From the NCBI RefSeq assembly GCF_002895005.1, contig NZ_POWF01000007.1, positions 62,001-126,000 of the forward strand: a stretch of DNA of 64,000 nt, read 5' to 3'. The notes beneath the pieces were generated by a model, which ran no database searches, was not told the DNA's origin, and saw only the letters and a program-made list of their open reading frames with translations. The DNA is from Hanstruepera neustonica. Its GTDB lineage: Bacteria > Bacteroidota > Bacteroidia > Flavobacteriales > Flavobacteriaceae. Made by a program: the position numbers and the translations under genes. Positions 11,286 to 24,704 of this stretch are shown here, in pieces (positions within the stretch are counted from its first letter, which is position 1; each line of letters begins with the position of its first letter).

Positions 11286-11495
11286 AATGGTAATTTTAAA
11301 ATGATTGATGTGTTTATGTGACGCTAGTATTTGGATTTCGTTACAAATGGAATGGGATTTATTTCCCGATGCAATATTTAACTTTTCTTTAAAATAAAGG
11401 GTTCCTCGTGTTTGGGCAACAAATAGGATACAAAAAATGCATAAAAAGAGTAAACCAAGAGCAATCATTAATAAATTCACTTACGAATATAACAT

Positions 11496-11543: not shown

Positions 11544-12185
11544 TTAATTGGCTATCCCAGAGCCTAAATAAGTACTGTTTGATACTTGGCTACCATCGGC
11601 AGTTATAAATGCCATAAATAGCTCTACAGTATCTCCTGCGTAGGTTGTTGGTATTGCAACAATTTGAGTTCCTACTGTTCTGTCTGCTCCATCTGTTAAA
11701 GAAATAGATTCTTTCTTTGATGGATTGTAAACCAATAACATTGCTTTATCGGTAGCGTTGGCGTTACCTTCAGCAGAGTTATCATCCCAGTTAAAAGTTA
11801 CCTCACCAGCTGTTGCAAGATCTGTAGAAGGGTTCAAAGCAGCTGATAAACCTCCCCTACTTACTAATGCGGTTGCATAATCCACCTCAAAGTCTGGTTC
11901 GACCCCTGTGATGGCATTATTCAACACATAAGACATCGCAGCATTAAATGCTGTTTTTTTCACTGCTAAAAACTTATACCCTTTTTGGATAAATGGTTTA
12001 ACAGCTTGAATAAATTCTAAAGTCACAGTAAACTTGTTTCTTTGGTTTACCTGACCTACAGTTCTTGGATTGGCTACACTTGAAGGTTTAATTCTGATGT
12101 AGTCAATTCCTTTCCAGCTTCCACCGATAATGTTTCCAACCTTACCGGAAAGCCCTCCTAAAATTCCTTGAGCAATTTTACCCAT
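11544..12185 (-). CDS. DUF6266 family protein
   Basis: A 213-residue protein opening MGKIAQGILGGLSGKVGNIIGG and then WKGIDYIRIKPSSVANPRT, the diagnostic N-terminus of the Bacteroidota-specific DUF6266 family. There is no signal peptide or membrane helix. The C-terminal half (about 95-213) looks all-beta, with VTFNWDDNSAEGNA and ending ADGSQVSNSTYLGSG. The family is common and often found in variable regions, with no established function. It has its own terminator and a 379-base upstream gap, so it is probably transcribed alone. Confidence 0.8.
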   Translation of the reverse strand: MGKIAQGILGGLSGKVGNIIGGSWKGIDYIRIKPSSVANPRTVGQVNQRNKFTVTLEFIQAVKPFIQKGYKFLAVKKTAFNAAMSYVLNNAITGVEPDFEVDYATALVSRGGLSAALNPSTDLATAGEVTFNWDDNSAEGNANATDKAMLLVYNPSKKESISLTDGADRTVGTQIVAIPTTYAGDTVELFMAFITADGSQVSNSTYLGSGIAN

Positions 12186-15380: not shown

Positions 15381-16211
15381 TCATTGATGCATAGCTAGAA
15401 CCGTATTTTTTCTTAAGGTTCCCATTGTGGCAATTGCACTTGTTTTATACAACCCCATTTTTCTTAATACATCTGGTTTTTTGTCTAAAATGCACATAAT
15501 ATTCTCTACATGTGACTGTGCATACTCTTCTAGACGATATGATGACTCGATGTATTCAATACCGATTTGTTTATTTAACAATTGTTCTAAATACACTGCT
15601 AGTGAGTTGATATTTTTCGCTGTATTTACCGTGACTTTCTTCTTTTTCTCTAAAACAAAAATGCTTATCTCAAAATTCGTTTTTTCCAATATTTTTATGA
15701 ATTTGCTGATGTCGGATGTATTTATACTTTGCTTGAAATCTGATGCAATTGTCAAGGAAACTTTTTGACCAATAGATGCATTTGGTGGTACAATTAAAAT
15801 AGGGCATGATTTTATTTTCTTTACTATTGCCCTTGTATTTTTTGAAACCTTTGTATCTACACTTCCGGTTATGATCACCAAATCAATGCTAATTTTTTCA
15901 ATGTTTGTTTTGATACCGTTTATTAGCTCCCTATTTTCTGAAATGGCATAAAAGCTATGTTTGTCATTATCGGAATCTAATGTGCAATGTTCAACCAAAG
16001 CACCCAATTGTCTCAATGATTCCTCTTTGGGCTCATCAAAAATGGCATCATCAGCTTGAAGCAATTCAATAGCATTTAAGCCGGAAACGTCATAAGAATA
16101 CGTATTTAAAAAATAAAATTCGCAGTATTCCTCTTTAAGAAGTTCTGTAACGTAATTAATGGCTACAGTACTATTACGAGAAAAATTAGTTGGGATTAAT
16201 ATCTTTTTCAT
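15381..16211 (-). CDS. Universal stress protein, tandem UspA domains
   Basis: A 276-residue cytoplasmic protein starting MKKILIPTNFSRNSTVAINYV, the classic UspA opening. The first Usp domain covers about 1-143, with the end motif CPILIVPPNAS; a diverged second half (148-276) ends with TMGTLRKNTVLAMH. UspA proteins bind nucleotides and support survival in stress; this one lacks a clear G-2x-G-9x-G(S/T) ATP loop in the second half. It is the distal gene of a minus-strand stress cluster. A palindrome lies 57-82 bases before its start. Confidence 0.85.
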   Translation of the reverse strand: MKKILIPTNFSRNSTVAINYVTELLKEEYCEFYFLNTYSYDVSGLNAIELLQADDAIFDEPKEESLRQLGALVEHCTLDSDNDKHSFYAISENRELINGIKTNIEKISIDLVIITGSVDTKVSKNTRAIVKKIKSCPILIVPPNASIGQKVSLTIASDFKQSINTSDISKFIKILEKTNFEISIFVLEKKKKVTVNTAKNINSLAVYLEQLLNKQIGIEYIESSYRLEEYAQSHVENIMCILDKKPDVLRKMGLYKTSAIATMGTLRKNTVLAMHQ

Positions 16212-16266
16212 TTTGTTCTTATTAAAAGTGAATATCCAGTTTACTGCTGTTGAAATTCTTAAGGGT

Positions 16267-16294
16267 AACTGTGAAAGTAGTTACTTTCACGGTT
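16267..16294. promoter_or_regulatory. Palindrome upstream of usp gene
   Basis: GTGAAAGTA-GT-TACTTTCAC (16271-16290) is a perfect 9-base inverted repeat, extended on both sides with one G-T pair. It lies between the helical-protein gene and the usp start. With no T run on the minus strand, it looks more like an operator than a terminator. Confidence 0.4.
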
Positions 16295-16396
16295 GCTTAT
16301 ACACAAAAAAAAAATGAGGCGTTTTGCTATTAATCAAATTTTAAACTATGTTCCCTTTTTAAATTTTTCAGTACTTATTTTATTATTTCATATCCA

Positions 16397-16786
16397 TTAT
16401 TTGCGCTGATATCTGCTTATTATGGTATAGAATTGATTTCTAAAACTGTTACAATCCGTTACAAGTTTCAAATAGTTGGCTCTTCTTTGCTCATGTATTT
16501 TTAGCCGATTTAAATCATATTTAACTTTTCCGTACTCATATTCAGTTTTAAGCTCTTGTTCATATTTACATAAATTTGCCATAATTAGGACGTTGTTCCT
16601 TCTAATTGCTAAAATTGTATTTGAAACAGACATATTTTTAATGAGTTTTTTTTCGATTAATGACATCTGTTCTAATTCACTATTGAAGGCTTCTATAGCC
16701 GCCATCCACATGTGTAATTCATTTAAATCTTTTTTTATACAAAGACGTCTATGTTCATCCATCTTGTGTGATATAATACTGCTCAC
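16397..16786 (-). CDS. Unknown helical protein A of the stress cluster
   Basis: A 129-residue soluble, almost entirely alpha-helical protein rich in Leu, Glu, Lys and Asn, with coiled-coil-like heptads (LHMWMAAIEAFNSELEQMS and HEQRRANYLKLVTDCNSF). It is not a family I can name. Its layout parallels the next upstream gene: an 'L..W...I......EL' first helix and a last helix with RR..YL......FR..F...I. The two are probably paralogues. The gap to that gene is 14 bases, so they are co-transcribed. Confidence 0.7.
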   Translation of the reverse strand: MSSIISHKMDEHRRLCIKKDLNELHMWMAAIEAFNSELEQMSLIEKKLIKNMSVSNTILAIRRNNVLIMANLCKYEQELKTEYEYGKVKYDLNRLKIHEQRRANYLKLVTDCNSFRNQFYTIISRYQRK

Positions 16787-16800
16787 ATGCTTATGTTTAT

Positions 16801-17220
16801 TTAGTCAACACCAACGAGTTTAATTTTCCCATGAATTTTATTGAAAAAATCATCCTTGAGACGTCTGTATTTATCCAAATGGTATAGATAACTTCTTCGG
16901 TAGCTTTCATGTTCTGTGATATAAACCATATCGCAAGCTGTATCTTCGCATTCTACAATATTGGTTCTTGAATTGGAGTATTTAATTAGCGCATTTAACA
17001 AGGTTTGATTTTCATTTTGTTTCTTTTCAAAACGTTTTACAACCGTACTATCATCCAATCTTGTATTGAGGTTATGATTACAGATTGTAATAAGATTGAT
17101 AAGCTCTTTTTCTATATACTTAAGATGGCTAATCCAATTTTCTAATTCCATTGTGTTGATTTTATGTGTTAGATCGACATCGGAATCATGATCAAATAAT
17201 CTATTCTTAAAACCTGCCAT
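16801..17220 (-). CDS. Unknown helical protein B of the stress cluster
   Basis: A 139-residue soluble, mainly helical protein. MELENWISHLKYIEKELINL and HESYRRSYLYHLDKYRRL align by position with helices of its downstream neighbour. A short central segment holds two Cys (VECEDTACDMV). There is no signal peptide. It is 12 bases downstream of the GreA/Rnk-like gene. Function unknown; its position within a stress regulon is the only clue. Confidence 0.7.
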   Translation of the reverse strand: MAGFKNRLFDHDSDVDLTHKINTMELENWISHLKYIEKELINLITICNHNLNTRLDDSTVVKRFEKKQNENQTLLNALIKYSNSRTNIVECEDTACDMVYITEHESYRRSYLYHLDKYRRLKDDFFNKIHGKIKLVGVD

Positions 17221-17232
17221 ACTCTTGTTTTT

Positions 17233-17652
17233 TTAAATTGTTATGTTGATATTATTAAATGACTTTTCTTGTTGGACTTCAATAATTTTTATTTCATGTT
17301 GACCCATAGGAAACTCCCAGGTTACTATATCTCCCTTTGAGTAGCCAATAAGTGCTGTTCCCATAGGGGTGAGGATAGATATTTTATTGTTCTTAACATC
17401 CTTATCCATTGGTGCAACTATTTGAATTGTCTTCTCTATGCCATTATTAAAAATTATTGTCACTTTACTGTTGAATCTAATTACATCTAGTGGCATTTCG
17501 CCATTATCAACAATGTGGGCTGTTTTCAATTCATCCAATAATTTCTGATGAGATTTTAGAGTTTGAAAATCTTCAGCATAACCTGAAATGTTAAGTAGTC
17601 TTTTTAAATAGACGTACTCTTTTTTTTCCATTATTAAACTTCCATATTTCAT
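17233..17652 (-). CDS. GreA/GreB C-terminal-domain protein (Rnk-like)
   Basis: A 139-residue protein. The first about 45 residues are helical (EYVYLKRLLNISGYAEDFQ), shorter than a GreA coiled coil; the C-terminal part has the FKBP-like Gre domain with ILTPMGTALIGYSKGDIV, the diagnostic 'sp.g.ALlGk..GD.v' motif. Proteins of this build (Rnk type) bind RNA polymerase near the secondary channel without cleavage activity, because the acidic coiled-coil tip is missing. It sits directly after glutamate dehydrogenase (23 bases) in the same direction. Either Met-1 or Met-8 could be the start. Confidence 0.85.
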   Translation of the reverse strand: MKYGSLIMEKKEYVYLKRLLNISGYAEDFQTLKSHQKLLDELKTAHIVDNGEMPLDVIRFNSKVTIIFNNGIEKTIQIVAPMDKDVKNNKISILTPMGTALIGYSKGDIVTWEFPMGQHEIKIIEVQQEKSFNNINITI

Positions 17653-17675
17653 GTCTTCATGTTTTAAATTTTTAT

Positions 17676-18980
17676 TTATGGGAATATCCCTCTTTGTACA
17701 TAAGCTTTTTCAATACGTTCAATAGCAATACAATATGCAGCAGTTCTCATGTCTATGCTTTCACATTTTGCATACTCATAAACTTTCTCAAAAGACTCTT
17801 TAAGTTTTTTGTGTAGTTTTGCCATGACCTCATCTAATTGCCATAATTCGCCATTACGATTTTGAAGCCATTCAAAATAGCTACCTACAACACCACCTGA
17901 ATTGCACAAAATATCTGGTATAATAGTAATCCCTTTTTCTAATAGGATTTTTTCTCCTTCAACATTAGTAGGGCCATTTGCCCCTTCTGCAATGAGAGTA
18001 GCCTTTATTACAGGCGCGTTATCTTTTGTGATTTGATTACCAAGTGCCGCAGGAATGCATATGTCGCATTCTGTAGCAAAAAACTTTTCATTGTCAAGGT
18101 CGAATGCTTCTGGGTAACCAACGACACTATCTTTATTTGTTTTTGAATAGCTTAATAGATTTTCGACATTAATACCTTCTGCTTTTCGTATACTACCAAA
18201 AGCATCTTGAACTGCTACCATTTTTGCACCATCTTTTTCTAAAAAATGTGCAGCCCAATAGCCTACATTACCAAACCCTTGAACAATAAATCTTTTATCT
18301 ATTAAACTTTCGTTGTTTTTTTCTGCCCAAAATTTAATTGATAAATAAACTCCATATCCAGTTGCTCTATCGCGACCTTCCAACCCGCCGCTTCCTGCTG
18401 GTTTTCCAGTAACTACATGTTGGTTTGCTGTACGTTCAGCTGGTGGCCTTGTACTCATGTAGGTATCTGCCATCCACGCCATGGTTTGGCTGTTTGTATT
18501 GACATCTGGTGCAGGAATATCATGTTCTGGGCCAATATTGTCTGCCAAAGCAAAGGTGAAGCGTCTGGTAATACGCTCTAATTCTCCTTGAGAATATTTT
18601 GAAGGATCTAATTTTATACCTCCTTTTCCACCACCATAAGGCAATCCTGCCAATGAGGTTTTCCAGGTCATCCACATAGCCAATGCTCTTGCAGCATCTA
18701 TATCAACAGTTGGATGGTAACGTAAACCTCCTTTGTAAGGTCCTAATGCATTATTGTGCTGTACTCTATAGCCTGTAAAAATTTCCACTTCGCCATTATC
18801 CATCTTTACTGGGAAGTTTACAATAATCTCATTATTGGTAATGCTTAAGATTTTTTTAATGTTTGGATGTAGTTTGATATGGTTTGCAGCGCTTTCAAAC
18901 TGCTCCATAACATTATCCATCATACCCCTTACCGGTATTTTTTTAGATTTCTTATTTCTTTCTTTTGTTAATGTTTCCAT
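17676..18980 (-). CDS. Glutamate dehydrogenase (Glu/Leu/Phe/Val dehydrogenase family)
   Basis: A 434-residue protein with GPYKGGLRYHP, the substrate-lysine region MTWKTSLAGLPYGGGKGG (about 100-118), the catalytic Asp region DIPAPDVNT, and the Rossmann motif GFGNVG (about 233). It converts glutamate to 2-oxoglutarate and ammonia with NAD(P). The length and GGGKGG form are those of the hexameric catabolic-type enzyme. In this cluster it leads a minus-strand unit with the Gre-like, helical and stress proteins. A short basic N-terminal tail (about 20 residues) precedes the domain. Cofactor preference cannot be read. Confidence 0.95.
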   Translation of the reverse strand: METLTKERNKKSKKIPVRGMMDNVMEQFESAANHIKLHPNIKKILSITNNEIIVNFPVKMDNGEVEIFTGYRVQHNNALGPYKGGLRYHPTVDIDAARALAMWMTWKTSLAGLPYGGGKGGIKLDPSKYSQGELERITRRFTFALADNIGPEHDIPAPDVNTNSQTMAWMADTYMSTRPPAERTANQHVVTGKPAGSGGLEGRDRATGYGVYLSIKFWAEKNNESLIDKRFIVQGFGNVGYWAAHFLEKDGAKMVAVQDAFGSIRKAEGINVENLLSYSKTNKDSVVGYPEAFDLDNEKFFATECDICIPAALGNQITKDNAPVIKATLIAEGANGPTNVEGEKILLEKGITIIPDILCNSGGVVGSYFEWLQNRNGELWQLDEVMAKLHKKLKESFEKVYEYAKCESIDMRTAAYCIAIERIEKAYVQRGIFP

Positions 18981-19342
18981 TTCTAATATTTAATTAGCGA
19001 TTAAGCTATTTTTGTGAATCTTTTTTTATTTGAAAATTTAAAAGGACTGGTTCTTATCGTATCAAATCGTAACTTATTATCGGTTGTCCTTTTTAATAAT
19101 ATTGTACTTAAAAGACTTTTGAAATTCATGATATTTATATATTAATGTTGTTTTTATTAATTGTTGATTTTATTGACTTTTAAAATTTATTTAAAATACC
19201 TCTCGGAAATAGACCGCTCATGATATTTATCCATTATGTATTTATGCCTTGCATAATTACGATTGGGCTTTTTGTGAATTGCTTTCTGAACATTAATTGT
19301 TGTTATTATGGCATTAAAAATCATAACTTTTTGTATTATTAG
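18981..19342. other. Gap with two tiny frames upstream of glutamate dehydrogenase
   Basis: There is no recognised gene. Two minus-strand frames of 42 codons (19001-19129) and 45 codons (19187-19324) are possible small proteins; the second has a basic C-terminal half (KPNRNYARHKYIMDKYHERS). Neither has a strong start signal. An inverted repeat, TAAAAGGAC (19039-19047) and GTCCTTTTTA (19086-19095), could form a leader hairpin for the dehydrogenase gene. I did not see a sigma-54 motif here. Confidence 0.35.
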
Positions 19343-19507
19343 TTAAACAAACAATGGCTTGCGCTCTTGGAATGTCTCTACTTCTGTGATAACTTCATCG
19401 GGCAGCGACTGATCATATTCACTACAAGACCAAACCTTGTCTTTTTGCGCTGTTAAAACACAAGTGTTTACATGTGAACAACTTGGACAAATACTAAAGT
19501 GATTCAT
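19343..19507 (-). CDS. Small Cys-rich protein behind a sigma-54 promoter
   Basis: A 54-residue frame starting MNHFSICPSCSHVNTCVLTA and continuing KVWSCSEYDQS. Four Cys in a CPSC...C...C arrangement suggest a zinc-ribbon or metal-binding knuckle. It is acidic towards the C-terminus. A near-consensus sigma-54 promoter ends 38 bases before the ATG, which strongly supports expression. It lies between the glutamate dehydrogenase unit and the two-component system, in the same orientation. The exact family is unknown to me. Confidence 0.7.
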   Translation of the reverse strand: MNHFSICPSCSHVNTCVLTAQKDKVWSCSEYDQSLPDEVITEVETFQERKPLFV

Positions 19508-19544
19508 ATTGAAAAAAATTATTATTAATTACATATACCCATTG

Positions 19545-19559
19545 GCAATGCGTGTGCCA
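19545..19559 (-). promoter_or_regulatory. Sigma-54 (RpoN) promoter
   Basis: The minus strand reads TGGCAC-ACGCA-TTGC, matching the -24/-12 consensus TGGCAC-N5-TTGC exactly in the conserved positions and spacing. The predicted start site is near 19534, leaving a leader of about 27 bases before the Cys-rich small gene. A sigma-54 activator gene lies 150 bases upstream. Confidence 0.8.
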
Positions 19560-19588
19560 AAACAAGAACCTTAAATAAACAAACCCTG

Positions 19589-19614
19589 AAAAACCCTTTA
19601 TTTAAAAGGGTTTT
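19589..19614 (-). terminator. Terminator of the two-component operon
   Basis: Stem AAAACCCTT with AAGGGTTTT around an AT-rich loop, giving a T run on the minus strand about 80 bases after the response-regulator stop. A second small stem, TTACCC-AGTT-GGGTAA (19661-19676), lies between them. It separates the two-component operon from the sigma-54 promoter. Confidence 0.7.
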
Positions 19615-19695
19615 GAGCATATTTGGTTGTAATTTTAAAATTGGAGAAACTGGGGTATAATTACCCAGTTGGGTAAAAAAGTATCAAACCTAATC

Positions 19696-21036
19696 TTATT
19701 GGTCTGCAAGTTTTTGCCGAATGGTCTTTCGGTCTATTTGAAGAATTTCTGCTGCTTTTGATTTATTGTTATCAGTAGCTTTCAGTACTTTTTGAATGTA
19801 TTTTTTTTCCATTACTCGTAGTGGAACGAGTTCATCGGAAGGTAAGTTTAAGTTATACTTTAAGTGTTCGGGTAAATGCTGGACTTCAATAACTTTATCG
19901 CACATAATAACTGCACGCTGAATAATATTTTCAAGTTCTCTAACATTACCAGGCCAATCGTAACGTTCTAAAATTTCCAGAGCTTCCGGAGTGATTTTTA
20001 CAAATCTATCTTTATACTCTACTCCATATTTAAATAGGAATTTGTCCACTAATAATTGGATGTCCTCTTTGCGTTCACGTAGTGGAGCAATTTCGATTTC
20101 AACGACAGTTAAACGGTAAAACAAATCTTCCCTGAAGTTTTGTTTTTTTATCATCTCCTTTAAATCGCTGTTTGTAGCTGCAATGATACGCACGTCTATT
20201 TTTTCTGCTTTTGTGGAACCAACTCGCACTACTTCTTTTTCCTGCAGGACACGAAGCAATCTTGATTGAACAGGCAATGATGCATTACCTATCTCATCCA
20301 AAAAAATAGTGCCACCATCAGCTGCTTGGAAAAACCCTTCTCTATTGGTTTCGGCTCCTGTAAAAGCACCCTTTAAATAGCCGAACAGTTCCGCTTCCAA
20401 CAAATTTTCTGGAATAGCACCACAATTAACTGCGACAAATGGGGCTCTTGAGAATTTGCCCTGATAGTGAATAGCTCGGGCTACCAATTCTTTACCTGTA
20501 CCACTTTCGCCTTTGATAAAAATAGTTGCCTTATTATCTTTTATACGCTCAATAACTTGGATTACGTCATTTATTTTTTCTGAATTCCCGATGATATCTC
20601 CGTAGGCTTTGGTATTTGCTTCCTTGGGTCTATCTTCTTTCGTTGGTGTTTTTTGTGAAGTGACCATAGATTTATCAATTGCAGCCTTTAACTCATCCTT
20701 TGTAAATGGTTTGGTTAAATACTCTACCACTCCGGATTTAATAGCTGCCAAGGAATCTTGAATGGACGGATAGCCTGTGACGACGAGTTTTGGTAATTTT
20801 GGATAATGTTCAGACACAAATTTTATGAGTTCGAAACCATCCACTTCGGGCATTTTTAAATCTGTAATCAATAAATCGATTTGTGTATCCCTTAAAATGG
20901 AGACTGCTTCTTTAACCGATATGGCTTTAAAAACGTGATAATGCCAAGATTGCAAGTGACGGTGCAAGAGTTCTAGAATGTTAACATCGTCATCAACAAT
21001 TAAGATATTTTCTTTGCGTAGTTGCATAGCTAGCAT
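19696..21036 (-). CDS. NtrC-type sigma-54-dependent response regulator
   Basis: A 446-residue protein in three parts: a receiver (about 5-125) with DDD near the start and the phospho-acceptor in LLITDLKMPEVDG (about 57); an AAA+ sigma-54 activator domain with Walker A GESGTGKE (about 179), the sigma-54 contact loop GAFTGA (about 223) and Walker B-like GGTIFLDEIG; and a FIS-type HTH (420-446, KSKAAEILQIDRKTIRQKL). It activates sigma-54 promoters when phosphorylated. Its ATG overlaps the kinase stop (TAATG), so the pair is translationally coupled. A likely target is the sigma-54 promoter just downstream. Confidence 0.95.
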   Translation of the reverse strand: MLAMQLRKENILIVDDDVNILELLHRHLQSWHYHVFKAISVKEAVSILRDTQIDLLITDLKMPEVDGFELIKFVSEHYPKLPKLVVTGYPSIQDSLAAIKSGVVEYLTKPFTKDELKAAIDKSMVTSQKTPTKEDRPKEANTKAYGDIIGNSEKINDVIQVIERIKDNKATIFIKGESGTGKELVARAIHYQGKFSRAPFVAVNCGAIPENLLEAELFGYLKGAFTGAETNREGFFQAADGGTIFLDEIGNASLPVQSRLLRVLQEKEVVRVGSTKAEKIDVRIIAATNSDLKEMIKKQNFREDLFYRLTVVEIEIAPLRERKEDIQLLVDKFLFKYGVEYKDRFVKITPEALEILERYDWPGNVRELENIIQRAVIMCDKVIEVQHLPEHLKYNLNLPSDELVPLRVMEKKYIQKVLKATDNNKSKAAEILQIDRKTIRQKLADQ

Positions 21037-22139
21037 TAGTTTTTTGGAAGTGTCACTGTAAAGATAGCACCTTTTTTTATGTTATTTTCTGCCGTTATAT
21101 GTCCTTTGTGTGAAGCCACAATACCATGTACGACACTTAACCCCAGCCCTGATCCTTCTCCCATTGGTTTAGTGGTGTAAAATGGTTGAAACACTTTGTC
21201 TACATCCATTTCCCCAAACCCTATGCCTTGATCCGAGATTTTAAGAATAATGTGTTTCTCATTCTGTTTGGCCTCTATGGTAACCAAGCCATTTTTTGGA
21301 GAAAAATAAATAGCATTCATCAGTAGATTGAACATAATTTGTGTTATTTGCACAGTATCTGCACGCAGCATCAAATTTTCATCTTCAATTTTAACAATAT
21401 ATTTTACTTTACTTTTGCGAAATGTTGGTTCCAGTAATTTTATTGATTCCTTAATAATACTTACTAGATTAATATGCTTCATTTCCTGTGGCATTGTGCA
21501 AGTAAAGAACATCAGTTTTTTAACAACCTCTCTTGAAAATATGGCATTTGTAATGATTTTATCGAGGTCATTTAGAGCTTGTTCATCTTTTTCCAATCTT
21601 GATTGTAAAAGCTCTGCAAAACCTAGAATATTGGCCAGAGGCGTGTTGAGTTCGTGAGCAATTCCAGCCGTGAGTTCACCCAAAATGGCAAGACGGTCGG
21701 TACGTTCCATTTGACGCTTCATTGACAACTCACTATTTTTGATGTCGATACGCTCCAAAAGATTGCCAATTTTTAAGGCGACATTGTCTAGCAATAATGT
21801 TTCTTCTTCTAGAAATTTGTCTGCTTTTAAAGCTGAAGCGTTAAAGGATGCGATGATACGCCCTTTGGTATCATTAAAAATTAAAATGGAACTGACGATT
21901 GTTGGATTGGTTTTATTTAATGGTTCGGTGTTTATATTTATAGATGGTGTTTCTATGGAAATCTCTGTCTTTTCGGGATATTGAAATGCTTTTTTTAAAC
22001 TGTAAGCAATTGCCTTTAAGGTTTGTTCCAGCTGGTCAAAATCGGCATTTACAATAATAGATGTCACTTCATAGAGGCAGGTTAATTCTTTGATACGCTC
22101 TTTTAATTGTTGTTCTGAAGTACTCATGTGACGAAACAT
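21036..22139 (-). CDS. Soluble sensor histidine kinase, partner of the sigma-54 regulator
   Basis: A 367-residue protein without membrane helices. Residues 10-140 look like a GAF-type sensor (LYEVTSIIV...LEEETLLLDNVALKIGNLLERI). The HisKA H-box is AGIAHELNTPLANILGFAEL (about 155-175, His phospho-acceptor), followed by a HATPase domain with N-box NLLMNAIYFSP, DQGIGFGEMD and GSGLGLSVVHGI. It is cytoplasmic and so probably senses an internal signal. It overlaps the regulator gene by one base. Met-5 is an alternative start. Confidence 0.93.
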   Translation of the reverse strand: MFRHMSTSEQQLKERIKELTCLYEVTSIIVNADFDQLEQTLKAIAYSLKKAFQYPEKTEISIETPSININTEPLNKTNPTIVSSILIFNDTKGRIIASFNASALKADKFLEEETLLLDNVALKIGNLLERIDIKNSELSMKRQMERTDRLAILGELTAGIAHELNTPLANILGFAELLQSRLEKDEQALNDLDKIITNAIFSREVVKKLMFFTCTMPQEMKHINLVSIIKESIKLLEPTFRKSKVKYIVKIEDENLMLRADTVQITQIMFNLLMNAIYFSPKNGLVTIEAKQNEKHIILKISDQGIGFGEMDVDKVFQPFYTTKPMGEGSGLGLSVVHGIVASHKGHITAENNIKKGAIFTVTLPKN

Positions 22140-22187: not shown

Positions 22188-22370
22188 TTACAAAAACCAC
22201 AATTTATTTTTTGCTTCCTCTTTAATATCATTTTTGAAACGAGGTACTAATTGTGCTACCATTTCTGGGTATCTAATGGTTATTGGTACGTTTTGAGGTT
22301 TTAAAGATTTCCAATACAGTCTGCTAAACTGGAATACTTGGGTAAGCAATTCTGTTATAATATTATCATC
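22188..22370 (-). pseudogene. Possible PIWI/Argonaute C-terminal remnant
   Basis: Sixty sense codons and a TAA run in the same frame as, and directly after, the TAG stop of the integrase stub. The peptide includes VFQFSRLYWKSLK, VPITIRYPEMVAQLVPRF and ends KNKLWFL. A 'P.tI.Yp...A' strand-helix followed by a hydrophobic C-terminal residue is the layout of the end of prokaryotic Argonaute PIWI domains. There is no ATG to open it. I infer a gene remnant left by a deletion that joined it to the integrase. The assignment is from memory of the family and needs a search. Confidence 0.45.
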
Positions 22371-22640
22371 CTAAAAAGCATCTTCATTTGGGCTACTCAT
22401 ACTTACTTTTATTGGAAATGGAAAGCCATAAATACCATTTTGTATTTCTATTTGGCGTTGTGCGCAAATGGTTTCTGCTAATTGCTTGGTTTTCTTGTTA
22501 ACCTCTCTTTCTGTTTTTGTTTTAGGATTAGGCGTAAGATATAACCGTAAATACTCGGTTTTGCGTTTTCCTTTATGATAGTAATCTAAATACAGACTTA
22601 TTTTATCATTTTTTTTGCGTTGTCTTAATGTTACTTTCAT
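22371..22640 (-). pseudogene. Truncated tyrosine integrase (N-terminal arm-binding domain only)
   Basis: An 89-residue frame starting MKVTLRQRKKNDKISLYLDYY and continuing KRKTEYLRLYLTPNPKTKTEREVNKKTKQLAE, the arm-type DNA-binding domain of Bacteroidota site-specific integrases. Intact relatives are about 400 residues, with a catalytic R...HxxR...Y domain that is entirely missing here. The frame stops at TAG and is followed in frame by the PIWI-like fragment. It lies 6 bases after the HTH/zinc-finger gene, the usual order in Bacteroidota integrative elements. It is a relic, unlikely to recombine DNA. Confidence 0.85.
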
Positions 22641-22646
22641 AGGATG

Positions 22647-23012
22647 CTAATTAAAAAGGTTTTCTATTTGCCATCTGGCCACAATACGCTTTCTTCCAAA
22701 AGGGACCGCTTTTAAACGTCCTTGTTGAATCATTCTTTGAATGGTCCATCTACTTACACCAATCAATTGTGAAGCTTCAGTAACACTTAAAAAATCCTTA
22801 TTGTTTACTGCGTTGGTATTGGAAACTTGAACAGCTACTCTTTGCTGCTGAATATCTTCAGAAAGGGTAGCTTGAATCTTTTCTTTACGCTTACGTGCCT
22901 TATAAGCTTTTTTAGCGCAAGTATCACCACAGTATTTAGTTACTGTTGTACGTGCTGTAAAAGCATTACCGCAATGTTTACAGGTTTTTGGGATGTATAA
23001 ATTACTGCTCAT
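22647..23012 (-). CDS. Zinc-finger plus HTH (excisionase-like) protein of an integrative element
   Basis: A 121-residue protein from the ATG at 23012; the longer frame to 23066 adds an unlikely 18 residues. The N-terminus has CKHCGNAFTARTTVTKYCGDTC, a four-Cys zinc finger, then a basic linker (AYKARKRKEK), then a MerR/excisionase-type HTH (SVTEASQLIGVSRWTIQRMIQQGRLKAVPFGRKR). Such genes sit immediately upstream of the integrase in many Bacteroidota elements and probably regulate or direct excision. Intact, although its integrase is broken. It sits 217 bases from the mnmE stop. Confidence 0.85.
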   Translation of the reverse strand: MSSNLYIPKTCKHCGNAFTARTTVTKYCGDTCAKKAYKARKRKEKIQATLSEDIQQQRVAVQVSNTNAVNNKDFLSVTEASQLIGVSRWTIQRMIQQGRLKAVPFGRKRIVARWQIENLFN

Positions 23013-23229
23013 AAATGGTGCTTTATGTAGCGTTATGGTGCAACGTGGGGCAATATGGTGCATCATTTCGCCAATCTTTTAGCCAACAGATTTTGGCAAC
23101 AAATCCGTATTTAAGGCAACAGATATACAACAAATTTAGTTAAAAAAGAGCAAAAAAGCAACAAAAAAGAGAAGATAAAAATACGTAAAGTCAATAAAAT
23201 CAACACATTAACAATAAAAAGAAAGTAAG

Positions 23230-24621
23230 TTACTTCCCGATACAAAAATTGGCAAAAATATTACCCAATAGGTCATCATTAGTAATCTCACCGGTAATTT
23301 CACCAAAATGGTATAAAGCCTGGCGAATATCAATGGCCATCAAATCACCAGACAATCCCGACTCCAGACCATGCTTCACTTTTTGTATTTCTTCAAAGGC
23401 TTTAAGAAGTGCATCATAATGCCGTGTGTTGGTTACAATGGTTTCATTATTTCGAAGCGCTCCTGTGTTAATTAAATTTAGAAGGGAGTTAGTTAATTGC
23501 TCCACACCAAACCCTGTTTTTGCTGATAGTAATTGCACACCATCAATCTGGTTTTGCAGTTCTGCCAACTGAACATCATCCAGTTTATCTATCTTATTAG
23601 CAATGATGAGTAGCGGTTTTTGAGGATACTTATTTTTTATTTTTTCAATCTCCAATTTGATAGCCTTTAAATTGGAAATACCCTTAAAACTATCAAACAA
23701 ATAAATGGTGACTTGCGATTGCTCTATTTTTTCAAAGGTTTTTTTGATACCAATACTTTCCACAACATCTTGTGTTTCTCGAATACCCGCCGTGTCTATA
23801 AATCGAAATCCGATACCACCTATGGAAATCTCATCCTCTATAGTATCTCTTGTCGTTCCAGCAATTTCCGAAACAATAGCCCGTTCTTCGTTTAACAAGG
23901 CATTCAAAAGAGTTGATTTACCAACATTGGGTTCTCCGACAATAGCAACTGGAATGCCATTTTTTATCACATTACCAACTGCAAAGGAATCTATCAACCG
24001 TTTAAGTACAAAAGTAATTCGGTCAATTAAGACTTTGAATTGGGTTCTGTCTGCAAACTCCACATCTTCTTCTGCAAAATCCAATTCCAATTCAATCAAG
24101 GAGGCAAAATTCAAGAGTTCCTCACGAAGTTTGGCAATTTCAGAAGAAAAACCACCGCGCATTTGTTGCATAGCTATTTGATGAGAGGCTTCATTATCGC
24201 TGGCAATAAGATCGGCTACCGCTTCAGCCTGGCTTAAATCCAGCTTTCCATTTAAGAAAGCCCGTAAGGTAAACTCACCGGCATCAGCCATACGACAACC
24301 TTTTCGCAAGAACAATTGAATAATTTCCTGCTGGATGTACGGCGAACCATGACAACTGATTTCAACCACATCTTCACCTGTATATGAGTGTGGGTTTTTA
24401 AAAATGGATACCAAAACCTCATCTATGGTTTTCTGCCGATCCACAATATGTCCCAGATGAATGGTATGTGTTTTTTGTTGCGACAATTGCTTCTTACTGG
24501 TAACCGATTGAAAACAATCTGAAACCATACTGATGGCCTTATTTCCAGACAATCTAATAATAGCTATAGCTCCTGCCCCAGAAGGAGTCGCCAAAGCAAC
24601 TATGGTATCATTTTGTATCAT
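23230..24621 (-). CDS. mnmE: tRNA modification GTPase MnmE (TrmE)
   Basis: The start at 24621 (MIQNDTIVALATPSGAGAIAI) is the family N-terminus; the longer frame to 24648 adds nine residues of leader. Domains: an N-terminal formyl-THF-binding domain (1-120), a helical domain, a G domain inserted at about 220-375 with GEPNVGKSTL, DTAGI and NKID, and the invariant C-terminal CIGK whose Cys takes part in the reaction. With MnmG it modifies U34 of tRNAs. Its 3' end is a known integration target for some genomic islands, and here it faces an integrase relic. A TAnnTTTG match lies 5 bases before the start. Confidence 0.97.
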   Translation of the reverse strand: MIQNDTIVALATPSGAGAIAIIRLSGNKAISMVSDCFQSVTSKKQLSQQKTHTIHLGHIVDRQKTIDEVLVSIFKNPHSYTGEDVVEISCHGSPYIQQEIIQLFLRKGCRMADAGEFTLRAFLNGKLDLSQAEAVADLIASDNEASHQIAMQQMRGGFSSEIAKLREELLNFASLIELELDFAEEDVEFADRTQFKVLIDRITFVLKRLIDSFAVGNVIKNGIPVAIVGEPNVGKSTLLNALLNEERAIVSEIAGTTRDTIEDEISIGGIGFRFIDTAGIRETQDVVESIGIKKTFEKIEQSQVTIYLFDSFKGISNLKAIKLEIEKIKNKYPQKPLLIIANKIDKLDDVQLAELQNQIDGVQLLSAKTGFGVEQLTNSLLNLINTGALRNNETIVTNTRHYDALLKAFEEIQKVKHGLESGLSGDLMAIDIRQALYHFGEITGEITNDDLLGNIFANFCIGK

Positions 24622-24625
24622 GGCA

Positions 24626-24633
24626 CAAAAATA
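24626..24633 (-). promoter_or_regulatory. Possible -7 element of mnmE
   Basis: The minus strand reads TATTTTTG, 4 bases from the mnmE ATG, which would give a leaderless or near-leaderless transcript. Pattern match only. Confidence 0.3.
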
Positions 24634-24704
24634 GTAAATAGTAGGCACATAAATTCATGCCAGATATTAGGTTAATCTTAACATCGCATTTTGGCTTTAA
24701 CTCT

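Follow-up and report, generated by a model that had tools for sequence, protein, structure and literature searches.

A short minus-strand reading frame in Hanstruepera neustonica begins as an integrase and, when read through a stop codon, ends as an Argonaute. How two such genes came to share one frame, and whether the product is a protein or a relic, is the question raised by this locus. The frame lies in a window of 64,000 nucleotides, the whole stretch of DNA analysed here, from genome G000. It is very probably the scar of a deletion within a mobile island that is integrated at the 3' end of the host gene mnmE. The features of the island are listed in Table 1.

Table 1. Features of the mnmE island in the window, from the mnmE side to the far end.
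Feature	Position	Strand	Basis
mnmE, intact host gene, integration target	23230..24648	-	Pfam TrmE_N, MMR_HSR1, MnmE_helical
attL, last 18 nt of mnmE, coding for F-C-I-G-K-stop; left island border	23230..23247	-	Related islands have copies of this 18-mer at their far ends
Island gene resembling xis, HTH type, with an intact reading frame	22647..23066	-	HTH_17 E 5e-9; NCBIfam excisionase-family E 8e-10
N-terminal stub of the integrase with the Arm DNA-binding domain (codons 1 to ~73 of 364)	22421..22640	-	Arm-DNA-bind_5 E 2e-14
Deletion junction, 9 nt common to integrase and pAgo	22421..22429	-	Integrase homology through 22421, pAgo homology from 22429
Remnant of the pAgo C terminus (last ~79 of ~695 codons), with internal TAG at 22371-22373	22188..22429	-	PDLC02385 E 3e-29
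Genes that occupy the island today: histidine kinase, sigma54 response regulator, glutamate dehydrogenase, GreA/B-like, weak Usp match, small ORFs	15381..22139	-	Pfam
DUF6266 gene, right-end gene of the island	11544..12185	-	PF19781 E 4e-91
attR, degenerate, 3/18 mismatches to attL	11359..11376	-	Same place as attR of G001, G002 and G033

The preliminary description reported an 89-codon integrase stub, a TAG and 60 open codons up to a TAA, and these coordinates are confirmed. The minus-strand ORF at 22371-22640 closes with TAG at 22371-22373, and the frame beyond it is open for 60 sense codons, up to TAA at 22188-22190. The assignment of the stub to the N terminus of an integrase also holds, with an Arm-DNA-bind_5 match (E 2e-14). 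The first 72 residues of the stub are the same as in three intact integrases, and 71 of 72 are the same as in a fourth. According to Pfam, the stub contains the Arm domain only and lacks the catalytic Phage_integrase domain, whereas the intact integrase of G001 is composed of Arm, SAM-like and catalytic domains.

The peptide encoded by 22188-22370 of the minus strand corresponds to the final 60 residues of a prokaryotic Argonaute (pAgo), as had been proposed. It matches positions 614-674 of the 674 positions of the PADLOC pAgo model PDLC02385 (E 3.1e-29), the NCBIfam protein argonaute (E 1e-5), and the PDB chains of AfAgo (E 4e-5) and RsAgo (E 2.4e-3). The match to Pfam Piwi is weak (E 0.009) and lies below the Pfam cut-off. 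The peptide shares 98% and 95% identity with the C termini of intact pAgos of ~700 residues from two Flavobacteriaceae genomes, and has no match at E 1e-5 in the plasmid and phage collections.

The TAG had been taken as the boundary between the two genes. The true junction is located ~16 codons upstream, at 22421-22429, where integrase codons 1 to ~73 are fused in frame with the last ~79 codons of pAgo. It was placed by aligning the window with the intact genes of relatives; the integrase reference, the gene of G033, matches exactly through 22421. The 9-nt stretch has one mismatch to the extant pAgo in the alignment. The TAG thus lies ~16 codons past the junction inside the pAgo part, and intact relatives have a sense codon at this place. 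Residues 617-695 of an intact full-length pAgo align to the window remnant with 96% identity. With ~79 of ~695 codons remaining, the complete MID-PIWI module is absent from the window. The window pAgo is a fragment and no working Argonaute.

Both halves bear signs of recent decay. Compared with the nearest intact relative, in Gelidibacter sediminis (G247, Flavobacteriaceae), the pAgo tail has 2, 0 and 21 differences at codon positions 1, 2 and 3. The corresponding differences of the integrase stub are 0, 0 and 9 against G247, G001 and G002, and 2, 0 and 9 against G004. Because the differences fall mostly at third positions, both genes must have been under protein-level selection until recently. 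Among the pAgo matches of the genus and 397-genome searches (match lists only), the window alone has an integrase-pAgo junction, so that a single deletion, rather than several steps, can only be inferred.

The whole G000 assembly (3.05 Mb, 99.99% complete) contains two pAgo pieces in all, the window tail and a tail at C1:767743-767964. The second tail (L003 9779-10177) is 72% identical to the window tail and is adjoined by efflux genes. It is fused in frame to the N terminus of HsdM in an ORF of 132 residues, which matches HsdM_N with E 4e-15 and, weakly, Piwi with E 0.003 (Pfam). The HsdM-fused tail is a second decayed copy from the same kind of island. Integrase residues 1-75 are matched at the window only; four other matches in G000 cover part of the query at 33-40% identity. 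Neither this pAgo nor this integrase is present as an intact copy anywhere in the assembly, so the island is disarmed and probably stranded: it has lost its Argonaute and, without outside help, probably can no longer excise.

Intact counterparts exist in related genomes. Among five genomes of the genus that were searched, an intact pAgo of ~703 residues is present in G001, G002 and G004, remnants are present in G000, and none is found in G003. In all three intact cases an integrase with the N terminus of the window stub lies beside mnmE and xis, and the pAgo lies farther along on the same strand. Comparison of the regions downstream of mnmE, which had been suggested as a check, thus yields intact integrase-pAgo islands in G001, G002 and G004, and in other genera as well. 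A family sample of 397 genomes, which does not include G002 and G004, gives 40 matches to the pAgo tail in 37 genomes and 58 matches to the full-length integrase in 56 genomes at E <= 1e-100. The integrase is on the same contig for 33 of the 40 pAgo-tail matches, and on the same strand in all 33. The distance from the integrase end to the pAgo tail in these linked loci is 6.7-23.9 kb. The earlier suggestion of neighbouring genes is therefore correct as to a shared element and strand, but the two are not direct neighbours.

Linkage follows integrase identity. Of the integrase matches, 33 of the 42 with 60% identity or more are linked to a pAgo, and 0 of the 16 with 53% or less. Nine of the 42 have no pAgo on the contig. 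For G246, G352 and G190, the stretch toward the pAgo side runs into the contig end, and in G190 an N-terminal piece of pAgo is found on another contig. G322 possesses xre and slot genes, but no pAgo was found in the 19.9 kb read or in genome-wide searches with the tail and the full model. The remaining five (G087, G077, G227, G075 and G251) have diverged backbones, with no xre relative in the stretch read. A separate search with the full pAgo model gives matches in 39 of the 397 genomes and in 0 of 14 control genomes; those in G263, G375 and G300 are weak and unlinked to the integrase. The pAgo of G032 has stops inside the matched stretch.

The seven unlinked tail matches comprise the two G000 remnants, those in G118, G341 and G391, and weak ones in G131 and G129. 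G118, G341 and G391 contain no such integrase anywhere at E 1e-100. The pAgos of G118 and G391 are near a contig end; that of G391 is near the contig start, with primase and xre genes present. The pAgo of G341 is 5'-short (L146 12585-13949, ~450 codons) and lacks the N-terminal third; a c10 gene (described below) and further cargo genes adjoin it. This short pAgo is another possible remnant in which the C-terminal side is kept.

The same order is found outside the family. In Sediminibacterium sp. C3 (Chitinophagaceae) and in a Sphingobacteriia MAG, mnmE, xis and integrase are followed by primase, xre and pAgo. The integrase is 67% identical, and the pAgo, 36% identical to the G247 protein, is located 12-13 kb on, on the same strand. 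In a set of eight genomes checked, the integrase is on the pAgo contig in five and absent there in three.

The proposed deletion of the catalytic part of the integrase and most of the pAgo gene is supported by the 9-nt junction, by the intact parents, and by the lack of a remainder in the genome. One deletion between 9-nt short matches, through slippage or end joining, would have joined the integrase front to the pAgo tail. Along with the catalytic domain of the integrase, the primase module, xre and the defence slot would have been lost, as well as ~88% of the pAgo gene. The nonsense change in the pAgo part may have come with the deletion or after it. Alternatively, a stray pAgo fragment could have been inserted or recombined into the integrase gene. 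Stray tails do exist: besides the second tail on C1 of G000, a 24-codon tail of the allele type of the window is found in G002 (C4:1398403; L038 8416-8490), ~1.1 kb beyond the attR of an intact pAgo island, where it may derive from an earlier island stacked at this site. The window allele is also unlike those of its congeners, with 77% DNA identity to G001 versus 90% to G247. Against this origin, the pAgo allele type of the window is found in G247 together with the integrase type (99%) and the right end that the window has, all on a single contig and strand, and the G000 genome contains no remainder of the integrase beyond codon 75. An inserted fragment is accordingly unlikely. An assembly artefact that joined two island copies is more improbable still, as a mis-join is expected to leave the remainder of either gene elsewhere, and no such remainder is present in the assembly.

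A functional stub can be imagined in two forms. The Arm domain could bind the att sites together with xis and lock the island, or a chimera could be made by readthrough. The frames of stub and xis are open, and the stub differs from three of four relatives at third positions only; the same pattern is equally expected from a recent break, and the pAgo part of a chimera would have the TAG inside and lack MID and most of PIWI. A function of this kind is very unlikely. The chimera as a functional protein was rejected on account of the internal stop, the missing MID domain and a fusion partner that is not conserved, HsdM being the partner of the second G000 tail and the G002 tail having none. As for the identity of the peptide, a resemblance to PIWI by chance or from another family might be argued from the Pfam match, which by itself is sub-threshold. 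The PADLOC match at the exact C-terminal profile positions and the identity to intact full-length pAgos refute this reading, which has practically no probability left.

The deletion scar is situated in an island whose borders can still be read. The xis-like gene shares 93-96% DNA identity with three congeneric islands. At the other end, the 1.2 kb around the DUF6266 gene are 97-98% identical to the right ends of G001 and G002, compared with 75-87% for the mnmE-side DNA across congeners. The sequence upstream of the window attR is as in G001, G002 and G033, whereas the downstream sequence is different. Relatives of the histidine kinase that now lies in the island occur in 91 of 397 genomes. The kinase was considered as part of the pAgo system and rejected, as same-contig kinases are tens of kb or more from the pAgo, except in G000. 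The block from the kinase to the Usp gene is untypical as cargo, so the island was rearranged more than once.

The 18 nt at the mnmE end are the same, with 0-2 mismatches, in all 29 further loci checked; by itself this conservation proves little, as it concerns coding sequence of mnmE that is conserved anyway. A second copy within 4 substitutions is present in eight of ten stretches scanned at or near right ends, with one mismatch in G002, G058 and G033, two in G001 and L104, and three in L042, G003 and the window. It was not found in the stretches of L040 (G247) and L134. In seven of the eight, none of 40 order-1 shuffles does as well as the real copy; in G003, one of 40 does. For the window attR the test covered a 1-kb stretch, and 0 of 40 shuffles reach 3 mismatches. 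Throughout the window, a 14-nt core with at most two mismatches has four matches versus 0.9 expected; attL and attR are among them, and two lie elsewhere.

According to parts of PMC6531882 and PMC3285670, Salmonella SGI1 uses the terminal 18 nt of trmE (mnmE) and is flanked by 18-bp imperfect repeats. The island resembles such integrative mobilizable elements of Gammaproteobacteria in its tyrosine integrase and xis, its use of the last 18 nt of mnmE, and its far-end repeat. It differs in its hosts, which are Bacteroidota, and in its backbone, which by Pfam content consists of DUF6617, HTH_17, BT4734-like and DUF3987/PriCT_2 genes. Its cargo of defence and efflux genes is also unlike the integron of SGI1. 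These 18 nt of mnmE are thus a target shared by elements of Bacteroidota and by SGI1 in Gammaproteobacteria. The mnmE end of E. coli K-12 differs from that of the window at 3 of 18 nt.

The intact islands are sequentially composed of mnmE, xis, integrase, DUF6617, two HTH genes, primase genes, xre, a variable defence slot, pAgo, cargo and att. The Pfam names are those of the G001 genes. The far ends that were read contain the DUF6266 gene and the att copy in most cases. Of 37 pAgo loci that were clustered, 33 contain the primase gene (DUF3987/PriCT_2) and 31 the BT4734-like gene next to it, while the two small HTH genes are present in 31 and 32 loci and xre in 30; L114, L135, L136, L139-L146 and L148-L150 were compared with the clusters afterwards. 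For 25 elements the sequence read includes pAgo, integrase and mnmE; mnmE lies directly upstream of xis and integrase, with no xis match in L130.

The slot between xre and pAgo holds AbiD/Abi_2, Thoeris ThsB, Eco57I-type (cluster c13, an Eco57I-type methylase), type I or III restriction-modification or ApeA-like genes, and is empty in some loci, such as L118 and L133. This variable slot resembles the defence islands and hotspots of other mobile elements. It differs in that pAgo, a gene of defence type in its own right, forms one of its borders in most members.

Downstream of pAgo, the 37 loci have c10 in 12, c11 in 8, other genes over smaller clusters in 16, and none in view in one. The c10 gene corresponds to DUF6660, and in G001 it precedes RND and P-type ATPase genes that resemble metal efflux genes. 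The c11 gene adjoins pAgo in 12 of the 37 loci, downstream in eight and upstream in four (for example L044 9809-10543 and L036 12072-12779), and encodes a protein of 235-259 residues. Two members have no match in Pfam, and one has none in PADLOC. An R-N-x3-H stretch in c11, which we take to be HEPN-like, suggests that it is a HEPN RNase and a candidate effector.

The intact pAgos comprise 675-704 residues in 36 of 37 relatives and 618 in one. All 37 have GVGAF or GIGAF at the first catalytic aspartate motif and INKT at the third. These positions, which we take to be the first and third of the DEDX tetrad, were read off the alignment with AfAgo. The tail, QN-P-TI-Y-EM-A...LWFL, is near invariant in the 37. 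Four intact pAgos that were scanned match PDLC02385 from end to end, with E values of 1e-243 to 1e-282. The PADLOC model names the protein only, and the island context lies outside it. An AlphaFold model of one intact pAgo is poor (pLDDT 52). The nearest solved chains in the PDB to the G247 pAgo are AfAgo, RsAgo and EcAgo, which are counted as inactive or long-B in passages of PMC10620215 and PMC10954474. The predicted features of the intact pAgos fit the long-B type, with a PIWI domain that appears to lack the usual catalytic aspartates at the mapped positions. They resemble the long-B systems BPAN, BPAS and BPAM, as presented in parts of PMC10620215, in being apparently full-length pAgos with PIWI domains that seem devoid of catalytic aspartates. 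The island pAgo differs from these systems, which have a fixed effector, in having no constant downstream effector gene. It also differs in its upstream xre and primase module and its linked integrase.

The pAgo usually travels with the island. In 25 elements, pAgo distances correlate with integrase distances with a rho of 0.65 (0/500 permutations), and in 23 elements they correlate with primase distances with a rho of 0.77 (0/500). Correlations with the host mnmE are 0.29 for pAgo (18/500) and 0.35 for integrase (9/500), again over 25 elements. Three pairs share integrase identity of at least 99.7% in hosts of 80-83% MnmE identity. In one case, L041 and L128 (G058 and G277), the integrases are 99.7% identical and the pAgos 48%, a mismatch which indicates that pAgo alleles are swapped within one backbone.

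In the intact island, xis and integrase would insert the element into the last 18 nt of mnmE and excise it from there. By homology, the intact pAgo would use guides to detect foreign nucleic acid, and would then either trigger a partner or simply bind the target. Such action may protect the host and thereby the island. Guide use and defence by this pAgo are proposed from its sequence relationships.

The preliminary description regarded the Argonaute as defence cargo of the ancestral element. Its place on an integrase element is borne out; it belongs to the regular gene set of the element and is more than cargo picked up now and then. Judged from gene content and order, a mobile element family in Flavobacteriaceae and Chitinophagaceae regularly includes this long pAgo, which looks catalytically inactive, among its genes. 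In the open-access literature searched, titles and abstract openings revealed neither a pAgo with an integrase nor mnmE islands in Bacteroidota. The scar in the window represents ordinary decay and a dead end; the interest lies in the element family from which it derives. A pAgo subfamily thereby gains a defined vehicle, with integrase, target site, gene order and borders, which makes movement testable at the level of excision, circle and transfer. A further question is why a mobile element should retain an Argonaute that looks inactive and yet exchange the defence genes next to it. One tentative answer, which we consider possible but rather doubtful, is that the long inactive pAgo of Bacteroidota is a backbone gene of mnmE-specific elements that has no fixed effector, works for the benefit of the element, for instance by keeping out rival elements or plasmids, and is kept through the exchange of neighbouring defence genes.

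A subgroup of loci (L114 and L133-L136) stands somewhat apart. Its integrase is ~60% identical, xre directly precedes pAgo, and no mnmE is present in the stretch read. This subgroup perhaps uses another target site.
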